This document shows positions 27,324 to 38,899 of a stretch of DNA of 48,219 bases, piece by piece (position 1 is the stretch's first letter; the number at the start of each line of letters is the position of its first letter). Position numbers and translations under genes: made by a program. The notes under the pieces are model-generated. The model was not told the origin of the DNA. It did not search any database and saw only the letters and a program-made list of their open reading frames with translations. The stretch is from positions 1-48,219 of the forward strand of contig QMSP01000012.1 in NCBI GenBank assembly GCA_003650925.1. The letters run 5' to 3'. Origin of the DNA: Thermoprotei archaeon (GTDB taxonomy: Archaea > Thermoproteota > Thermoprotei > QMSL01).

Positions 27324-28046
27324 CTATCCTTTACGCCTACCAGTTCTCCTGGATGCTATGTGGCCAACCTTAGCTCCAGGCGGTGCATGCCTTGATACGG
27401 GAGGAGCTCCTTTGGGATGTGAACCGCCACCATGTGGATGTGCATAGGCTCCCATAGCCTTTCCTCTTACTCTTGGCCATTTCCTTGCCCTAGCCTTCCA
27501 CTTGTGATAGGCCTTGCCTGCCTTTAACATAGGCTTGTCTATACGGCCACCACCAGCACATATGCCTATGGTTGCTAGGCACTCATTAGGTATCGCCTTA
27601 GTTTTTCTGCTAGGGAGCTGTATTATGGTCCTACCATTAGTGTGAGTTAATACTGTGACGTAAGTTCCGCTTGATCTGGCTATTTTACCTCCATCTCCTG
27701 GTCTCAACTCAACGTTACATACCATGGTTCCTTCAGGTATTGCTCCTATGGGAAGTATATTACCAGGCATTATGGAGGCCTTGGCTCCTATCTCTATGGT
27801 TTGGCCTACTATAAGGCCTTCAGGAGCTATCATAATGAACTCAACACCATTCTCAAGTGCAATTCTTGCTCTTGGAGTATTACAGCCAGAATCATGGAAT
27901 ATCTCAACAACTCTACCTCTTATCAGTCCCATCAACTGTTCCTTAGTTAGCAAGGGATATCTAGCAGGACCTTCTCTTCTCCAAGATGGAGAGATAAACG
28001 TAGGACTACCACGACCCATTCTCTGTACGAGTATTCTTTTACCCAT
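27324..28046 (-). CDS. rpl2: 50S ribosomal protein uL2
   Basis: 240 residues. Binds 23S rRNA near the peptidyl transferase centre. The conserved KAMGAYAHPHGGGSHPKG (about 197-214) is the loop reaching the active site, and ASRRTGRRKG closes the protein. Length is normal for archaea. It follows uL23 by 17 nt, with GGAGGTGATG as ribosome site before the ATG. In most archaea uS19 follows; here a metal receptor does. Confidence 0.97.
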   Translation of the reverse strand: MGKRILVQRMGRGSPTFISPSWRREGPARYPLLTKEQLMGLIRGRVVEIFHDSGCNTPRARIALENGVEFIMIAPEGLIVGQTIEIGAKASIMPGNILPIGAIPEGTMVCNVELRPGDGGKIARSSGTYVTVLTHTNGRTIIQLPSRKTKAIPNECLATIGICAGGGRIDKPMLKAGKAYHKWKARARKWPRVRGKAMGAYAHPHGGGSHPKGAPPVSRHAPPGAKVGHIASRRTGRRKG

Positions 28047-28063
28047 ACTCCATCACCTCCTGG

Positions 28064-28333
28064 CTAGAATATGCCTAACCTTATGGCTATATCGACTGCA
28101 CTATATTCAGGGGATAGCTTTACATAAGCTTTTTTCTCACCTCTAGGCGTTATGAGGGTATTGACCTTGACTACTTTGACGTCAAATAGCTTCTCAACAG
28201 CTCTCTTGATCTGATGCTTGGTAGCGTCCCTTTTTACTATGAAGACAAGCTTGTTTTCTCGCTCAATTAATTCAACAGCCTTTTCAGTGACTACAGGGTA
28301 TAGTATCACCTCATAGGGGTCCACATCCATCAT
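28064..28333 (-). CDS. rpl23: 50S ribosomal protein uL23
   Basis: 89 residues, complete. [16 protein letters not shown] near the N-terminus and the [20 protein letters not shown] helix-strand (about 45-64) are typical. It sits at the peptide exit tunnel, where SRP and the SecY translocon dock. ATG at 28333 has GGAGGTG five bases upstream; a second ATG directly follows. Between uL4 and uL2 as in other archaea. Confidence 0.96.
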
Positions 28334-28346
28334 ACATCACCTCCTT

Positions 28347-29120
28347 CTAGGTGAATAGTCCCTTGGCGAGCTCTAGTATGGCCGATTTAGTCCATAGAGT
28401 AAGCCTGCCAGGAACCCCCCCTGGAGCAAGAACCTCTGCATTAAGATTCCTTACATGACACACATCCACTCCTGGTAGGTTCCTGGCAGCCTTGAATATG
28501 CCATTATCCTTGGCTATTACAATGAGAAGGCTCTTGGGCCTTACATACCTTCGTCCTCTCATCTTTCCTTTGCCAGCTCGCACTTTCTTCCCTTCCTTAG
28601 CCCTCTCTACATCATCCCATAGTCCAAGCCTTTTCAGTACCTCTCTTACTTCCTTTGTCTTCTTCAGATTCTGAAACTCATCAGATACTACAATTGGAAG
28701 CTCTGGGACTTTGCTTATTACATGACCTCTTCGCTCAATGAACTCCTTGATAGCTGTAGCAGCAATAGCGCTTCTTATTGCAAGCCTACGCTCCTTCTTA
28801 TTTATCTCCTCATGAACTACTTTTTCCACTCTTGGAGGATGAGGTCTATAGCCACCTACTGTCATTGGGGCAAGGGCAGCTCTACTCGAGCCCTTTATCC
28901 TAGGGACTCTGGCCACGCCATATCCTGGCCCCCAGCTCTCTGCTGTAGTCCTCTTGCCTGCAAGTCTATCTCTTCCTTGGGGTTGTATACGTGCGGTTAT
29001 GGATGATATGACAGCTCTTCTTATTAAGTCGGGCCTTACAGGAGTTTCAAAGATAGAGGGAAGCTCGAGCTTCTCGACAGGAGTACCTTCAAGGCCATAT
29101 ACATTCACTACCCTAGGCAC
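28347..29120 (-). CDS. rpl4: 50S ribosomal protein uL4
   Basis: 257 residues, archaeal length. The RNA-binding extended loop lies around residues 45-105 ([20 protein letters not shown], then GGYRPHPP); the C-terminal part [19 protein letters not shown] is conserved. It lines the exit tunnel. GTG start lies one base after the uL3 stop, with GAGGTGAGG upstream, so the pair is translationally coupled. Confidence 0.96.
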
Positions 29121-29121
29121 T

Positions 29122-30144
29122 CTACCTCACCTCGGCCATAATGGGCTTTACGCTAATCCATACGATCTTCGGCTTTCCAGAATGCTGTACTTGAGGGGGC
29201 CTTATGGGGAATCTCATCCTGATGAGCCTCTTAGCCGGACCGGGTATGGAGCCTTCAATAACTATGAAGTCACTCCTGACTATGCCATAGTGCTTCCAGC
29301 CACCCTTGGGATTTATCTCCTCAGCCTTCGTCCCTATGACGAGTATGCGTTTGTTATATTCAGTTCTTTGGTGAAATCCCATTTGTCCAGCCCTTGGTAT
29401 AGTGAACATGACGCTTGGATGTTGAGGACCGGCTGTTCCTACCTTCCTATAGCCTTTTCTATGTTTGTGCCATCTTGGGAGTATCTTAACGCCAAATCTT
29501 TTGACTGGACCTTGAGTACCTTTACCCTTCGTCACAGCTACTACGTCTATATACTGACCTTCTTCAAATACTTCAGTTACTCTGACTTCCTTACCTAGAA
29601 GACTCTTTGCGTATTCGAGTCTGTCTTTCATAGTGCCTCCATCAATCTTCACTTCAAATACCTCTGGCTTCTTCTTGCCTAGACCACTCCTCCTTGGCTG
29701 AGTAGCTACTATTAAGCGTATTTCCTCTACCCTCTCTAGATTATCCTCAATCTTCTTGAGCTGCTCCTCTGTGTTGAACTTCTCAGGTGTGGTGAAGACT
29801 CGTTCTAGGTCCCTGGGAGGATCAGAAGCCCATACCTCTCCAATTGACTTAAGACCTTGCTCTGTCTTAGCATAGGCTCTGAAGCCTAGAACTAGCAGTG
29901 GAGGACACTCTATAACAGTAGCTGCCTTAACTACCTCTCTGCCATAGAAGGGACTACCAACACGGTCTTCTACCATTACGAGGTGAAGCATGCCTACTTT
30001 ATATCCAGCGAAGCCAAGTAGTTTAGGTTTATCGGAAACTATACTTGGCCATCTCCTTATCCTTGCAACGATCCTTCTAGCACGTACCCTAGGCCAGAAA
30101 CCCCAGCTTCCTCTTTTGGGAGCTCTCTTAGGTCTAGCGCCCAT
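29122..30144 (-). CDS. rpl3: 50S ribosomal protein uL3
   Basis: 340 residues, the long archaeal/eukaryotic form. The basic N-terminus ([15 protein letters not shown]), [39 protein letters not shown] and [19 protein letters not shown] are all conserved. The last of these is the loop near the peptidyl transferase centre. It begins the uL3-uL4-uL23-uL2 run, about 50 nt after the SPOUT methyltransferase gene. Confidence 0.97.
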
Positions 30145-30193
30145 GGCTTAGCCCTCTTAGCCAGAGAAAGTAATGTGGTCTCTTTAAAATACT

Positions 30194-31084
30194 TTACCTC
30201 TGCATTACCTTCATGAGGTTTAGTATTGAAAGAACAGCGAACATGGCTTCCTCGCTTCTAACAGTTGCTACTCCTTGCTCAGGAATGAAGTTTATGGAGA
30301 AGTCTACCACCTCATCTAAGCTGAAGCCCTCATCCTTAGCTATGTCGTATAGACCTTCGTAAGGCGCACCAAACACTATGAGAACTTCATTAGAAGACAG
30401 AAGTTTCTCTCTTAGAGAGTCGAAAACGCTCTCTATGCTTCTACCATATCTTGAAGTGGCTATCTTGAGACCTTTGAACTCATTGAGCAAAGCATAGAGG
30501 GAGGTGAAAATTCTCTCCTCTAGAAAAGGACGCCAGTAGAAGGGGATATCATCGACGTCAACCTCTGTCAGAAGAACACCTTGGCTTGTGACCCCTCGAA
30601 GCTTAACGAGCACGAATCTTCTCCTTCTATAGGCTTCTGGGTGTTCAGTCGCCATAATACCCTTCTCCTTCAAGCCTATGTCAACCATAACAAGACCTCT
30701 TTCCTCTAAGACCTTAGTGACAAAGCCTTCTCTATACCTGATTTTTAGAGCCTCACTTAGTTTATCAGGTACATCATGAGAGGGAGCTCTTAGAGGAGGC
30801 AAAAGACCTACGTATCTTAAAAAGGGCCTAAGTGGTATGTATTTCTTCAGGTATGGAGGAGTAAGATGGTATCTCAGGATATCTCTTATTAGAAGACTTT
30901 CATCAGGAGTGCGGCGATATATCAGTACTCTAGAGGCTCTGAATATAGCGAGTGCTCTTGCAATAATGCCTAACTTCATGGTCTTTTCTCTAAGGCTTGA
31001 CTCCTCTGAGAGAATGTTAGAAGGTATGGCCACATACAGCCTAAAGGGGAGCTTAGGTGGGAACCAAAGCCCTTGCATGTTCAC
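30194..31084 (-). CDS. SPOUT-class RNA methyltransferase (COG2106-like)
   Basis: 296 residues. The beginning LYVAIPSNILSEESSLREKT and the end VLIVFGAPYEGLYDIAKDEG with a knotted C-terminal part (FIPEQGVATVRSEEAMFAVL) match the archaeal protein encoded just upstream of uL3 in many genomes. That protein belongs to the SPOUT (alpha/beta knot) SAM-dependent methyltransferases; an OB-like insert lies in the middle. Probable rRNA modification; the exact base is not known to me. GTG at 31084 overlaps the stop of the small basic ORF (GTGA); ATG at 31078 is an alternative. Confidence 0.85.
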   Translation of the reverse strand: MNMQGLWFPPKLPFRLYVAIPSNILSEESSLREKTMKLGIIARALAIFRASRVLIYRRTPDESLLIRDILRYHLTPPYLKKYIPLRPFLRYVGLLPPLRAPSHDVPDKLSEALKIRYREGFVTKVLEERGLVMVDIGLKEKGIMATEHPEAYRRRRFVLVKLRGVTSQGVLLTEVDVDDIPFYWRPFLEERIFTSLYALLNEFKGLKIATSRYGRSIESVFDSLREKLLSSNEVLIVFGAPYEGLYDIAKDEGFSLDEVVDFSINFIPEQGVATVRSEEAMFAVLSILNLMKVMQR

Positions 31085-31182
31085 CGCTTCGTCTTCTTCT
31101 TAGCCTTTCCTTTTCTTGCAGCTTTCTCAGAGCCTCCAGATACGCCTACTTGTAGCAGAGTAGTTCTTTGACGCCCACCCAC
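31081..31182 (-). CDS. 33-residue Lys/Arg-rich small protein
   Basis: GTG at 31182 opens a 33-codon frame ending in TGA at 31081-31083, which overlaps the GTG start of the SPOUT methyltransferase (GTGA). GGAGGGGG lies upstream of the start, one of the strongest ribosome sites in the window. The product starts MGGRQRTTLLQ and ends RKGKAKKKTKR; the second half is highly basic, suggesting RNA or ribosome binding. The N-terminus faintly recalls archaeal eS25 (MGGKKKPTLSQ-like), but the winged-helix part of eS25 does not follow in frame. Function unknown; translational coupling to the methyltransferase is likely. Confidence 0.5.
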   Translation of the reverse strand: MGGRQRTTLLQVGVSGGSEKAARKGKAKKKTKR

Positions 31183-31280
31183 GATCAATCCCCCTCCAGT
31201 ATATTCATGTTCCTCTTCCTAAAAGATATTTCTAGTGATAGGATGGGGTTGTTCAAAAAGTATAGCACGTAGAGTGAGTC

Positions 31281-31499
31281 CTATTTGGCACGCCAGTATG
31301 CTACCTTACCTTTCTTTATCTCCTCTACCTTCCCCTCCCTTAGGAGAAGCCTTAGGACATAGAATGTCTGTGAGTGAGTTAAGCCAGTTTCCTTAACTAT
31401 CTCAGAGGTAGGCATCTCACCTCTATTCTTTAATAGTTCATATATTGCCTTCTTCCTCTCTATTATTCTGTTGGTTACTCTACGCGGCAAAGACCTCAC
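31281..31499 (-). CDS. winged helix-turn-helix protein
   Basis: 72 residues. KKAIYELLKNRGEMPTSEIV is helix 1 and the following helix, KETGLTHSQTFYVLRLLLREG holds the recognition helix, and KVEEIKKGKVAYWRAK the wing. No ligand or dimerisation domain is present. GTG start at 31499 with TGGTGAGG overlapping it; the minus-strand TTATTTTA near 31523-31530 may be its TATA. It lies between secY and the small basic ORF; it may regulate the downstream ribosomal genes or act as a ribosome-associated factor. Unrelated to eS25 by sequence as far as I can see. Confidence 0.7.
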   Translation of the reverse strand: MRSLPRRVTNRIIERKKAIYELLKNRGEMPTSEIVKETGLTHSQTFYVLRLLLREGKVEEIKKGKVAYWRAK

Positions 31500-31624: not shown

Positions 31625-33064
31625 CTAAGCTCTGCCCATGCCCAATAATCGCGCTATTCCAGGATACCTTTCCATGATGCGCTCACGGTCCATTATGGCC
31701 TTGTACTGCATCATTATGTCTATTAAGAGGAGTATTCCCATGCCTGAGCCTAAAGCACCTAGCATGTCTGCTACAGCTGCTATGAGGCCAACTATTATAC
31801 CACTCAACAGAGTAAATGAAGGTATGTATCGCTCAAGTATGATGGCTATTATCTTGGGCGACCTACGAAAGCCAGGAACTTGAAGGCCTGCATCAACCAG
31901 TTGTTGAGCTTGTGTACGCGGATCCATTCCTGAGGTCTCAACCCAAGCCTTAGCGAAGAAGGTGCAGATCAAGGTGAATAGTGCCACGTAGATTGCCGAC
32001 CTTACAGGATCACTTATAGCCTCAGCTAAACTTCTGGGCGAGGTGAGGTAGTAGAGAAGGCCCCCTACAAGCTCAAGATTCCTCTCACGGATCTCATAGA
32101 CTGCGATATACCTAAGCCACCAGCTATCCTCGCCTAGTCTCATCCAAGCTATTCTTGAGAATAGATGTAGATTAGCGAGCAAGGCACCAGCAAGGATAAC
32201 TGGTACGTTTGATACGTACAATAGCTTAAAGGGTAGAGTCCCACGTATACCACCATATCTCACGTGTACCACGGGTACGTCAACTCGTATGCCTTCCAGG
32301 TATGCTATTATCAGGAAGACTGCGATCATCGTAAGAAAGCCTGTCATATCGGGAAGGCCACGTCTACTAAAGGCTGCCATGAGGGCGGAGGTGTCACCCG
32401 TAACTATGGCGTTCTGAAGTGCAGCAAAGAATGCTAGAAGAGCTCCTAGAGGGAGATTGTCCTCCATTATGAAGGGGGAGAGGCTAAGCCAGAATATCTG
32501 CTGAGCAACTCCTGCTGCTATGAATAAGCTAACTCCACTTCCAAAGCCCCAACCCTTCTGTACTAGCTCGTCTAGGAGTATTATAATGACGCCAGCTGCC
32601 ATGAGCTGCACGAATATCAGAATGTTAGCCCAGAGAGGTAGCTCGCCGTATGCCCCACCGAGGATATATGCAAGAGCCTCTACTGCAGTGAATACGATGG
32701 CAAAGAATTTTTGAGCTCCTGTGTACAGGGCTCTATCTCGAGGATCTCTGAAGTCAACTGTTATTATCTTGCTTCCTACGAGGAGCTGGAATATTAGGCC
32801 AGCAGTGACTATGGGGCCTATACCTAGCTCAAGAAGTGTCCCCCTACGTGAAGCGAATATTAAGCGAAGAAGGAAGAGGGGCTCATACACTCCTTCTCTC
32901 ACGGTGAGGGGATAGAGGGGGATCTGGCCCATGACCATGTATAGAGTGAGGACGAGGCCTGTCCAGAAGAGCTTTTCTCTAAAGCTCACAGGCCTTCTAG
33001 GACGAGATACCTCAGGGAGTACTCTAAGCACAGGCTCAAGCGCCTCTAAGAACTTCGAAGCCAA
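31625..33064 (-). CDS. secY: protein translocase subunit SecY
   Basis: 479 residues with about ten membrane helices, archaeal SecY/Sec61-alpha type. LVQKGWGFGSGVSLFIAAGV, the lateral gate helices, and the cytoplasmic loop GMDPRTQAQQLVDAGLQVPG near residue 380 (ribosome-contact loop) are present. It forms the channel for secreted and membrane proteins. TTG start at 33064 with GGTGA seven bases upstream; GTG/TTG starts are common in this operon. Follows uL15 as in other archaea. Confidence 0.95.
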   Translation of the reverse strand: MASKFLEALEPVLRVLPEVSRPRRPVSFREKLFWTGLVLTLYMVMGQIPLYPLTVREGVYEPLFLLRLIFASRRGTLLELGIGPIVTAGLIFQLLVGSKIITVDFRDPRDRALYTGAQKFFAIVFTAVEALAYILGGAYGELPLWANILIFVQLMAAGVIIILLDELVQKGWGFGSGVSLFIAAGVAQQIFWLSLSPFIMEDNLPLGALLAFFAALQNAIVTGDTSALMAAFSRRGLPDMTGFLTMIAVFLIIAYLEGIRVDVPVVHVRYGGIRGTLPFKLLYVSNVPVILAGALLANLHLFSRIAWMRLGEDSWWLRYIAVYEIRERNLELVGGLLYYLTSPRSLAEAISDPVRSAIYVALFTLICTFFAKAWVETSGMDPRTQAQQLVDAGLQVPGFRRSPKIIAIILERYIPSFTLLSGIIVGLIAAVADMLGALGSGMGILLLIDIMMQYKAIMDRERIMERYPGIARLLGMGRA

Positions 33065-33078
33065 GGCTTCTCACCCTT

Positions 33079-33522
33079 CTACCTTACAGTTATAGCCTCT
33101 CCCCCACTAGCTTTAATTTTTTCTATGGCAGACTTTGAGAAACTAGGGGCAACTACGATCAGTGGTTTATCAACTCTGCCTCCTCCAAGAACCTTGTTGT
33201 AACCAAGCTTTCTTACATCTATGAGTATCTTTCCCTCCTTCATCTCTGCAAGTCCTCTTCTAAGGAGGGATTCAGCCTCGGCACATAGAGTACCAACATT
33301 TATGGAGTTCACTTTAGGTATAAGTTCAGGAGGCCTTGTAAAACCATGTTTTCCAAAGTAATCGGGACAGTACTTGATGACCCAGGTCCACATATGCTTG
33401 TGCATACCAGCATGACCTACTCCACCCCTAAGCCCACTCTTCCTGTGCTGGCCTGTTCTTCCCCACCCGCAGGTTCTTGTTCCTCTCATGTACCGGGACT
33501 TCTTCTTCCTTCTGACTACCAT
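33079..33522 (-). CDS. rpl15: 50S ribosomal protein uL15
   Basis: About 147 residues. The glycine-rich rRNA-binding N-terminus RGTRTCGWGRTGQHRKSGLR and the C-terminal KSAIEKIKASGGEAITV are typical for archaea. ATG at 33522 is chosen; GTG and ATG lie 9 and 6 nt upstream, just after the uL30 stop, and GGTGATGAGG serves as ribosome site. Confidence 0.95.
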   Translation of the reverse strand: MVVRRKKKSRYMRGTRTCGWGRTGQHRKSGLRGGVGHAGMHKHMWTWVIKYCPDYFGKHGFTRPPELIPKVNSINVGTLCAEAESLLRRGLAEMKEGKILIDVRKLGYNKVLGGGRVDKPLIVVAPSFSKSAIEKIKASGGEAITVR

Positions 33523-33531
33523 CCTCATCAC

Positions 33532-34014
33532 CTATGCCATCCTCTTTAACAGGTCGTTTATTGCAGAGCCCCTATAACCTAGCTCACCTCCAGCCTTATA
33601 GGGTTTCTTTATCGTGCCCTTGAAGCCTCCGCTTGGAGGAGCTAGTCTAAAGACCGGCTTAAGCCCAGGTATATCATCCAGGCGAGCTTTCCCTTCAAGA
33701 ACTGCTTTTGCGAACTGCTCTATATTCTCATAGCCTAGCTTTTTCACATGATCGTCAGTCAGCCTAGTGTTTCCTCGCAGCCTTCCTCTTCTTCTCAGTA
33801 AGAGGGCTAATGTCTCAGCGTCTATTTCACCCCATGTAACATAGTCCTTGACTTTCTGTAACATGCCAAGGTAGCTAGGCCTGTTGTCGATTATTACACA
33901 ATGATGCTTTCTCACAAGACGAAGCATTTTAAGAGTATCTTCCACGTCTTTAGGCACGCCTGCAGTTCCTCGTATCCTTATGACTGCTAATAGTTTCCTT
34001 GAGGAAGTTGACAT
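33532..34014 (-). CDS. rpl30: 50S ribosomal protein uL30
   Basis: 160 residues, the long archaeal form. The ferredoxin-like core [20 protein letters not shown] and [17 protein letters not shown] is followed by the archaeal C-terminal extension with [20 protein letters not shown]. It binds 23S rRNA beside uL5. Ends 9 nt before uL15; order as in other archaea. Confidence 0.96.
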
Positions 34015-34019
34015 TTACC

Positions 34020-34640
34020 TCACCACTCACGTGGATGCTTGAATCTATAGGTGTTCTTGAGAGCATTGTAGACCGCCTTTACAAAGTTTATAGTTGTCCT
34101 GGTCTCTCCTTTTGTTCTAGTCCAGACGTCTCTAATGCCAGCTAATCTGAGGACTACCTTAGCTGCCTCTCCTGCCACAAGCCCTACTCCTTTTGGAGCT
34201 GGTAGTAGAGTAACTCTCACACTACCAGCCTTTCCAGTAACTTTGAAGGGAACGCTGTGAGGCTCACTACATGAACACTCCCAGCTTCCACAACCTCTTC
34301 TTACTGGGATTATGTTTAGCTTTGCATCAACTATGGCCTTCTCTATAGCCATTCTAATCTGTCTGGCCTTGCCTATTCCTATGCCAACATGACCATTTTC
34401 ATCCCCTACTACAACCATGACTTGAAAACGGCTTATCTCACCGGCATCAGTCTGCTTTTGGACAAGGTTCACGTTAACTATTTCATGTTTTATGCCAGGC
34501 AAGAGATAATCCACTATTTCAACTTCTCTTATTGGGAGGTTCAGCTCAAAGAGCCTATCTATCGATGTAATCTTGCCTTCCTTGACTAGCATGCCTACAC
34601 GTGTTCGCGGTATCCATTCCTCTAGATATGTTGAGGCCAT
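34020..34640 (-). CDS. rps5: 30S ribosomal protein uS5
   Basis: 206 residues. The double-stranded RNA-binding segment [20 protein letters not shown] (about 72-91) and the ribosome-fold part [20 protein letters not shown] (about 141-160) are clear. [13 protein letters not shown] in between is the archaeal cysteine-rich insertion. It contributes to decoding fidelity and the mRNA entry channel. The 32-nt gap to uL18 contains only a leader with a possible GAGGTG. Confidence 0.96.
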
Positions 34641-34672
34641 AGGAACACCTCATCATTAGTATTTGATCCTGT

Positions 34673-35281
34673 TTAAATGTATTGCGCCTTCCCAAACCTA
34701 GCCAGTATTATGCCTCTAACTCTCTCAAAGTGGCTTGGAAGATTCTCAGGCTCAAGTCCTCTCTTGAGATACTTAGAGAAGCGAGACTCATAGAGAGATG
34801 GATCGCTTTCTCTCAACATCTTTGCATAATTGGCTATGTGCATTCCCTTAAGCCTATCCTCAGGAGGAAACATCTCTGGGCTACACGGTATTTTAAGGCC
34901 AGCATCTATGCCTCCCTTTATAGCAGCAAAGACCCTAGTACCCTTGATAGGACGGTGTAGGCCTATATCAGGGATGGCTTCTTTTATTCCAAGCTTTAAA
35001 GCCTTAAGGCCTGCTAGTAGTCCCGTCAGATATGCAGCAGGGATGTTATTAGTGTCAGCAAGCCATCCAAAATCTCTGCGAAGCTCATTTGAGTGGGCTG
35101 AGACAAGGACTATATCCCCAATGGGCTTAGCCTCAACTATCTGTACTATGATATGATTTATGGTTCTTCTTACAACAAATCTTGGTTTGCCCGATAGTAT
35201 CATCTTTCTTCGCTTATAGTAGTTTGTAACTCCTTCCCTCCTCCTTCTGAAGGGAACTCTATATCTGGGGCCTCTGGCCAT
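34673..35281 (-). CDS. rpl18: 50S ribosomal protein uL18
   Basis: About 202 residues, the long archaeal/eukaryotic form (L5e type) that binds 5S r[23 protein letters not shown] and [18 protein letters not shown] are conserved. ATG at 35281 with GAGGAG six bases upstream is preferred to the ATG at 35287, which overlaps the eL19 stop. Confidence 0.95.
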
Positions 35282-35283
35282 GT

Positions 35284-35733
35284 TCATCTCCTCACGAGAC
35301 CATGCTCCTTTATGTACATCTTCACGTGAGCTATACTATGAAATGCTCCTCCCTTGGCCATTCGATATAGCATTCTATATGCCTTTGGAGTTATGATTCT
35401 CCTCTTCCTTAGATACCTGAGAAATCTTCTTATAGCCCTTATCCTCCTGACCCACTGCTCCTTTTCATCAATCCTAGAGCCCTTTTTAGTTCCAGGCCCC
35501 CTCCTTCTTCCTTTCCTCCTCTGTTCATGCCTTATCCTTGCCCTTACTCTGCTTGTACCTTTTATTGGTCGTGCCTTTATAACACCTTCCTTTATAAGTC
35601 TTTTGACGTCCTCTCGAGTTATAGCCTCCATAGCCTCGTCCATTCTCTCAGGGTCTATCCATATTCTGTGAATACCTACTCCTAATATCTCAGCTGCCAT
35701 TCTTCTAACTGATTTAAGTTGCTGAGTCACCAT
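35284..35733 (-). CDS. rpl19e: 50S ribosomal protein eL19
   Basis: 149 residues. The archaeal/eukaryotic-only protein, with [20 protein letters not shown] at the N-terminus and the basic stretch [16 protein letters not shown] that threads through 23S rRNA. Near-abutting with uL18 downstream, and 2 nt from the eL32 stop upstream, so coupled translation is likely. Confidence 0.97.
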
Positions 35734-35735
35734 AG

Positions 35736-36167
35736 CTAGCCTACCTCCCCTACCCTACAAGGATTCAATACTTTAAGGCCTAACTCCATGGCTCTTTTGA
35801 CGATCTCAGCCCTCTTCTTCCTACTGACACTAGCAGCTATTCTCACGGCGTGTCTTCGAGGGTCTAGGCCTATAAGCTCATCAGGATTGTGGACTATGAC
35901 TTCTTCAAATCCACTAGGATGAAGCCCTCTAACCTCCTTTGGCCCACGATAGCCAATCTTGACCTTAGCCGGATAGCCCTTAATCTCAAGCCTTATCTTG
36001 TTATCAAGTCCTCTGGGCTTGCGCCAGCCTTCACTAACTCTCTTGAAACGCCAAGCGTCAATTCTCATGAACCTTGGCCTATATCGAGAAAGCAGCTCTC
36101 TTATTCTTAACAGCCTCTCCTCTTCTTGAGTTAACTTAGGCCTAACCTTGCTAGTAGAAGAGCTCAT
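35736..36167 (-). CDS. rpl32e: 50S ribosomal protein eL32
   Basis: 143 residues. Archaeal/eukaryotic-only protein; RFMRIDAWRFKRVSEGWRKP, KVKIGYRGPKEVRGLHPSG and HAVRIAASVSRKKRAEIV are conserved. In nearly all archaea this gene follows uL6, but here it begins 14 nt after the uS8 stop, with no room for uL6. Confidence 0.97.
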   Translation of the reverse strand: MSSSTSKVRPKLTQEEERLLRIRELLSRYRPRFMRIDAWRFKRVSEGWRKPRGLDNKIRLEIKGYPAKVKIGYRGPKEVRGLHPSGFEEVIVHNPDELIGLDPRRHAVRIAASVSRKKRAEIVKRAMELGLKVLNPCRVGEVG

Positions 36168-36181
36168 GACAACACCTCCTG

Positions 36182-36574
36182 CTAATAGACGTAGGCTAAG
36201 AGAACACCTCCTATTCTAAGCTTCTTCGCCTCATGATGTGACATAACCCCTCTTGGGGTAGATACGATTAATATGCCTATGTCTCTTGCAGGAAGGAACT
36301 CACGTTCCCACTTCTCAATATCCTTCCACTTGACAGGGAATCGAGGCTTTATAACTCCACATTTATTTATTCTGCCAAGCAGTTGCACTCTGAACTTCCC
36401 TGACCTCTTATCGTCTATGTACTCAAATTCACCTATGTAACCATACTGTTGCATTACCCTGAGCACTCTTGCTATGAGTTTAGAGGCGGGATATACTATG
36501 CACTCCTTATGGCCACGCATCTCATTGTTCATTATCGTCGCGAGAGCATTCGCTAAGGTATCCATCATTACCAT
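36182..36574 (-). CDS. rps8: 30S ribosomal protein uS8
   Basis: 130 residues. Starts [18 protein letters not shown] and ends with the conserved [20 protein letters not shown] region that binds the 16S rRNA central domain. It is an assembly and autoregulatory protein in other organisms. It lies between uS14 and, unusually, eL32. Confidence 0.97.
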
Positions 36575-36586
36575 GCGCTCTACCCC

Positions 36587-36751
36587 CTACATATACTTCT
36601 TGAAGCCTATCTTCTCAGCTACCTCTCTAAAGCATCTACGGCATATATTGAGGTTATATTTCCTGATGAGAGCCTCATGAGTGCCACAGATGATACAGCG
36701 GCGTGCCCCCTTTCCAAATTTCCTCTCCTTAGGAGGTCTATATTTGCCCAT
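36587..36751 (-). CDS. rps14: 30S ribosomal protein uS14 (zinc-binding type)
   Basis: 54 residues with two cysteine pairs, CIIC and CRRC, that bind one zinc. [18 protein letters not shown] is the archaeal N-terminus. ATG at 36751 with GGTGATG just upstream is the true start; a longer frame starting with TTG inside the end of uL5 is not likely to be used. Confidence 0.96.
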
Positions 36752-36758
36752 GTGAGCA

Positions 36759-37283
36759 TCACCTGACAACCTTTACATTGAAGACCTCTTCTAAAAACTT
36801 TATCGCCTCCTCTCTTGTAACTCGGTGATTCTTTCCAACACCAGCTCTTCTTCGTCTTCTCCTCATAACTCTAAAGCCTGGACGCTCAAGTGAAACGCAT
36901 ACATCCATGCCAAAAATCCCTATCTTTGGGTCATACTTAACCCCTGGGATCTGTATGTGCTCCTTGATGCCGAAGGAGAAGTTGCCAAATCTGTCTATGC
37001 TTGTTGCCTTCAACGTCCTGCCTACAGCTTCAAAAGCCCTATCTAGGAACTCATATGCTTTCTTGCCCCTCAGCGTCACTATGCAGGCTATACTCTCCCC
37101 TTTTCTAATACCGAACTCCTTTATGGTCCTCTTGGCCTTCCTGAAGCATGGCTTTTGACCAGTTAACATCTCAAGCACCTTAGCCGCTTTCTCTAGGCGT
37201 TCAATTGATGAGCCTACACATATATTTAAAACTACTTTTCCGATCACTATTTTTCTCATGGGATTATCCTTATTCTCACTCAT
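36759..37283 (-). CDS. rpl5: 50S ribosomal protein uL5
   Basis: 174 residues, binds 5S rRNA and the P-site t[43 protein letters not shown] and [15 protein letters not shown] are conserved. The ATG overlaps the eS4 stop by 4 nt (ATGA), indicating coupled translation. Confidence 0.97.
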
Positions 37284-38497: not shown

Positions 38498-38899
38498 TTA
38501 CGTACTAGAGGTTGAACTCGTCTCCTCTTTAGCTTCTTTTTTAGCCCGCTCCTCCTCTAGCCTCTTCACTATATCGTCCCTAATTCTAGCCCAGTCTATT
38601 CTCCTTACGACTATCTCCTTGAGGTGTTCCTTTAGAAGCTTGTGTGCAACTTCAGCTCCCAGCCTAGCAGCATTCCACGTAACGAATGGAGGATAGAAGG
38701 TTGCACTTTCAAACACTAGCTTCCCTCCTTCAAGCTTGAACTTGACATACCCTAGCTCTCTGAGATAACATGTGTCATTTGGACAGAGTATATCTATCTC
38801 ATTCATCTCCTTCTTTAGATACAGTAGCTTGTATTCAGCAGGTGAATCTATGAATCTTCCACATGGACATTGAATGCGGGGATGTTCCTCCACGCTCAC
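38498..38899 (-). CDS. zinc-ribbon protein of unknown function
   Basis: 133 residues. Four cysteines arranged as IQCPCGRFI (about 9-17) and DILCPNDTCYLRELG (about 36-50) form a likely zinc site. A mixed fold region (YVKFKLEGGKLVFESATFYP) and a charged helical tail rich in Glu/Lys follow (RIRDDIVKRLEEERAKKEAK). It appears to be first in the ribosomal operon: CTTATATAAC (38931-38940, minus strand) is a TATA about 36 nt upstream of the GTG, and GGTGAT lies just before it. Not one of the known ribosomal proteins that I recognise; possibly a ribosome-associated factor. Confidence 0.65.
   Translation of the reverse strand: MSVEEHPRIQCPCGRFIDSPAEYKLLYLKKEMNEIDILCPNDTCYLRELGYVKFKLEGGKLVFESATFYPPFVTWNAARLGAEVAHKLLKEHLKEIVVRRIDWARIRDDIVKRLEEERAKKEAKEETSSTSST

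Follow-up and report, generated by a model that had tools for sequence, protein, structure and literature searches.

The spc cluster of archaeal ribosomal protein genes canonically runs in the order uS8-uL6-eL32-eL19-uL18-uS5-uL30-uL15. In the window analyzed here, the whole stretch of 48,219 nucleotides from a heat-loving archaeon of the Thermoprotei, uS8 is directly followed by eL32, which raises the question of what has become of uL6. The uS8 gene (130 aa, 36182..36574, minus strand) matches PF00410 (E=9.8e-28), and the eL32 gene (143 aa, 35736..36167, minus strand) matches PF01655 (E=1.9e-41). Between the uS8 stop codon TAG (36184-36182) and the eL32 start codon ATG (36167-36165), both on the minus strand, lie the 14 bp CAGGAGGTGTTGTC (36168-36181, minus strand), at the place that uL6 occupies in other archaea; these coordinates and Pfam identities confirm the spacing reported in the initial annotation. 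A gene of approximately 580 bp cannot fit into a junction of 14 bp. The junction harbors a motif resembling a ribosome-binding site upstream of eL32, AGGAGGTG (36173..36180, minus strand), and it probably represents a working, clean start site for eL32. The remainder of the cluster is in place: eL19 (35284..35733, minus strand; PF25476/PF01280) comes next after eL32, followed by uL18, uS5, uL30, uL15, and secY in their usual order (31625..35287, minus strand), such that all members from uS8 to secY other than uL6 are found in order on one strand. Upstream of uS8, an open reading frame corresponds to uS14 (36587..36769, minus strand), which adjoins uS8 in almost every related locus whose flanks extend far enough. 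The window was also said to contain no uL6-like frame, and this was borne out both by a profile search of the genome, in which the uL6 family model had no match on the window's contig, and by a comparison of the genome's own uL6 with all frames of the window, which was negative as well.

The gene is nevertheless present in the same genome. The initial annotation had left open whether uL6 had moved or had been lost, and it had proposed a whole-genome search with a uL6 profile. That search revealed a single intact uL6 of 194 aa on another contig (G000:C2:77359-77943, minus strand), which establishes relocation and rules out loss. The encoded protein has two PF00347 repeats in one open frame of 197 codons free of stops, and apart from the two halves of this gene the uL6 model matches nothing in the genome. 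Its best match in the PDB is a uL6 chain (E=9.6e-54), aligned over residues 1-185 of 194, and it is therefore similar over nearly its full length to the uL6 proteins of solved ribosomes. The relocated gene is solitary, with non-ribosomal genes around it. On its upstream side, at a distance of 83 bp, is a divergently oriented gene for a Ras-like GTPase, and a converging gene overlaps the end of uL6; the product of this converging gene has weak similarity to DUF2400, looks like a DNA glycosylase by eye, and clusters with one such protein. A TTTATA stretch precedes the uL6 start, and comparable A+T-rich or TATA-like stretches precede many relocated uL6 copies, which suggests that the gene is transcribed from its own promoter at this element.

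The genome under study is fragmented (2.14 Mb in 81 contigs, 98.6% complete), which would be compatible with a uL6 gene that belongs between uS8 and eL32 having been dropped or collapsed during assembly or binning. Such an artefact is almost inconceivable, however, since uS8 and eL32 are likewise close together, with uL6 at another locus, in three further genomes of the order as well as in closed genomes of the class that consist of a single contig, and since the junction itself reads as a clean start site. The assembly gap that had been envisaged as an alternative is thus incorrect, as independent assemblies agree. More generally, caution is called for with binned genomes, in which a single ribosomal gene that has been relocated can easily be recorded as absent.

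How far this arrangement extends was determined at the levels of class and phylum, as the sample of the window's own family consists of this genome alone. The class sample comprises 81 genomes in 14 families (f1 to f14). In the 67 genomes of f1, f2, and f5-f14 that have both genes, closed genomes included, uL6 never lies within 60 kb of uS8, while the five genomes of f3 and f4 retain uS8-uL6-eL32. In twelve of the 14 families, uL6 was thus never found in its slot, among them f9, represented by one genome that is 52% complete, in which the slot is closed and uL6 has no match. Seven of the 81 genomes, mostly incomplete assemblies, are without a uL6 match. The shared state across families rules out a species-specific event, and the missing slot is the ancestral state of these 12 families rather than a peculiarity of this organism. 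In one genus of f14 (G073, G074, G076, G077, and G078), uS8 and eL32 are separated by approximately 2-2.4 kb, and other DNA has therefore entered the former uL6 slot.

Elsewhere in the phylum, 90 genomes could be scored, and uL6 adjoins uS8 in 84 of them. The great stability that the initial annotation had ascribed to the uS8-uL6-eL32 order therefore holds outside the slot-less clade but not within it. The six outgroup exceptions were considered as further uL6 moves, and this was rejected. In three of them (L142, L148, and L149), the junction of uL6 with eL32 is preserved and only the uS8 side is broken, two merely have wider uS8-uL6 gaps of 1.1 and 1.4 kb, and the last (G154) has scattered genes. 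The first three belong to f23 and f38; their clusters are cut exactly between uS8 and uL6, and uL6-eL32-eL19 are located together elsewhere. A second collection of 80 titled loci had uL6 outside the cluster in 39 cases and beside its usual neighbors in 41. All of the former, some of which are on short contigs and several of which appear to come from genomes already present in the class search, bear titles of Thermoprotei, Thermofilaceae/Thermofilum, Thermoproteales, Thermoproteus, Pyrobaculum, Vulcanisaeta, Caldivirga, or unclassified relatives, and the latter include Bathyarchaeota, Methanobrevibacter, Nitrososphaerota, and others.

Whether the gene itself was inherited or acquired was addressed with two phylogenies. 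In a FastTree phylogeny of eleven concatenated spc-region proteins, from which f13 was left out because it had too few genes, the slot-less genomes form one clade with a support of 0.998 and f3 and f4 are placed elsewhere, although some inner branches are weakly supported. In the uL6 tree, the relocated proteins likewise form one clade (support 0.986), f13 inside, and the sister group of this clade consists of the outgroup families that also hold that position in the spc tree (f16, f23, f27, f29, and f38). A new genomic site would suit an incoming gene, and uL6 might have been lost and replaced there by horizontal transfer from another archaeon; nevertheless, a single uL6 clade with the same position and the same sister outgroup as in the spc tree makes this highly improbable. 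The agreement between the two trees implies that uL6 was most likely inherited vertically and that its place alone changed, and it indicates one ancient removal.

The surroundings of the relocated gene bear on whether it departed from the cluster more than once. The window's order keeps the local context c10-c1-c1-uL6-c3; in the genome of the window, uL6 and c3 are inverted. A conserved, uncharacterized protein of approximately 305 aa (L097:7916-8836, L094:3991-4911, and G000:C2:93833-94753), which has no Pfam match, is the product of a gene adjacent to uL6 in ten genomes, which belong to f6, f10, and f11. This gene and uL6 are at a distance of 3 kb in one genome of f2 (G008); in the window's genome, where one contig carries both, the distance is 16 kb. 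The two genes are apart in G016, and contig ends interrupt the region in two further genomes. The protein has two similar-looking halves, and in f6 and f11 its gene lies near genes that, by eye, look like those of an acetyltransferase, a signal peptidase, and a thermosome. This neighbor was seen in f1, f2, f6, f10, and f11 only; it speaks for a single landing site in part of the slot-less clade and in no more than part, because the gene is absent from f12-f14, as it is from f3 and f4. The differing surroundings of uL6 in f7, f8, f12, f13, and f14 would fit repeated independent departures within the class, as would the general instability of the ribosomal clusters of this group, seen in the loci compared here and in the Thermoproteus tenax genome paper (PMC3189178). 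That scenario is nonetheless very unlikely, given that every slot-less genome tested falls into a single clade, that no member of this clade was found with uL6 in its slot, and that f1 and f2 have the neighbor in common with f6, f10, and f11.

The slot-less clade has other shared changes, and the removal of uL6 is thus one of several old rearrangements. In the window, the position of the S10-type block uL3-uL4-uL23-uL2 (27324-30144, minus strand) is downstream of secY, and two genes come in between, a small one of the winged-helix type and one of the RNA-methyltransferase type, Methyltrn_RNA_3 (whole region 27324-31499, minus strand). The secY-methyltransferase order is found in f2, f5-f7, f10, and f11, with uL3 next where the stretch extends far enough; the complete secY-methyltransferase-uL3 order was seen in f2, f6, f7, f10, and f11 but not in f3 and f4, which have uL4-uL23-uL2 upstream, as usual. 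Two further features were observed in these loci. In f5, f6, f7, f10, and two genomes of f11 (L115-L118, L120-L122), uS5 and uL30 are inverted as a pair within the spc cluster and lie on the opposite strand; no such inversion is present in the window or in another two genomes of f11 (L123, L124). Upstream of uL24, a cysteine-containing protein of 133 aa (38498-38899, minus strand), for which there was no Pfam match, is conserved in f2, f5, f6, f10, and f11.

The history that very probably accounts for these observations is that uL6 was relocated once out of the spc cluster in a common ancestor and is now a stand-alone gene, presumably with its own promoter. The departure would have taken place in an ancestor that the window's order shares with the families of Thermofilum, Thermoproteus/Pyrobaculum, and Vulcanisaeta/Caldivirga. 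The cluster would then have closed cleanly, leaving the eL32 start 14 bp past uS8 with a ribosome-binding motif of its own, while uL6 would function at a separate site under its own promoter. The move may have proceeded by copying followed by deletion or by excision and reinsertion, as the present sequences fit either route, and the varied surroundings of uL6 would result from later moves from one first site.

The uL6 case is thus an ordinary, well-resolved gene relocation. That its release from the spc operon allowed separate control of one 50S protein and was kept by selection seems very unlikely; if true, the relocation would have altered the regulation of 50S assembly rather than being neutral shuffling. 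The uL6-less uS8-eL32 junction is nevertheless a rare genomic character that is simple to read. It groups 12 families of the class together and leaves out f3 and f4, which are assigned to the same class by the database but are placed elsewhere in the spc tree. It can be used as an independent marker of deep branching within the phylum. Our literature search found no report of uL6 relocation, which may be recorded in a survey of ribosomal gene clusters in archaea that dates from 2009.

Relative to the canonical archaeal spc cluster, the window keeps the other members from uL24 to secY in the same order and has a slot without uL6. Broken ribosomal clusters are known from the Thermoproteaceae. 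As stated in a passage of the T. tenax genome paper, short clusters are typical of this family, and T. tenax, P. aerophilum, P. islandicum, and C. maquilingensis have only short ones of at most five genes, unlike most archaea (PMC3189178). That passage does not single out uL6, and compared with the clusters it describes, the spc run of the window is intact save for uL6, and the uL6 change is older, being common to Thermofilum-type genomes and several uncultured families. In Heimdallarchaeota, the S10-spc clusters are split, with segments located elsewhere (PMC10833476), and a normally contiguous archaeal spc run is thus broken there as it is here. The Heimdallarchaeota break, however, keeps uS8-uL6 as a separate segment (PMC10833476), whereas in the window uL6 alone is gone and its flanks have been rejoined.
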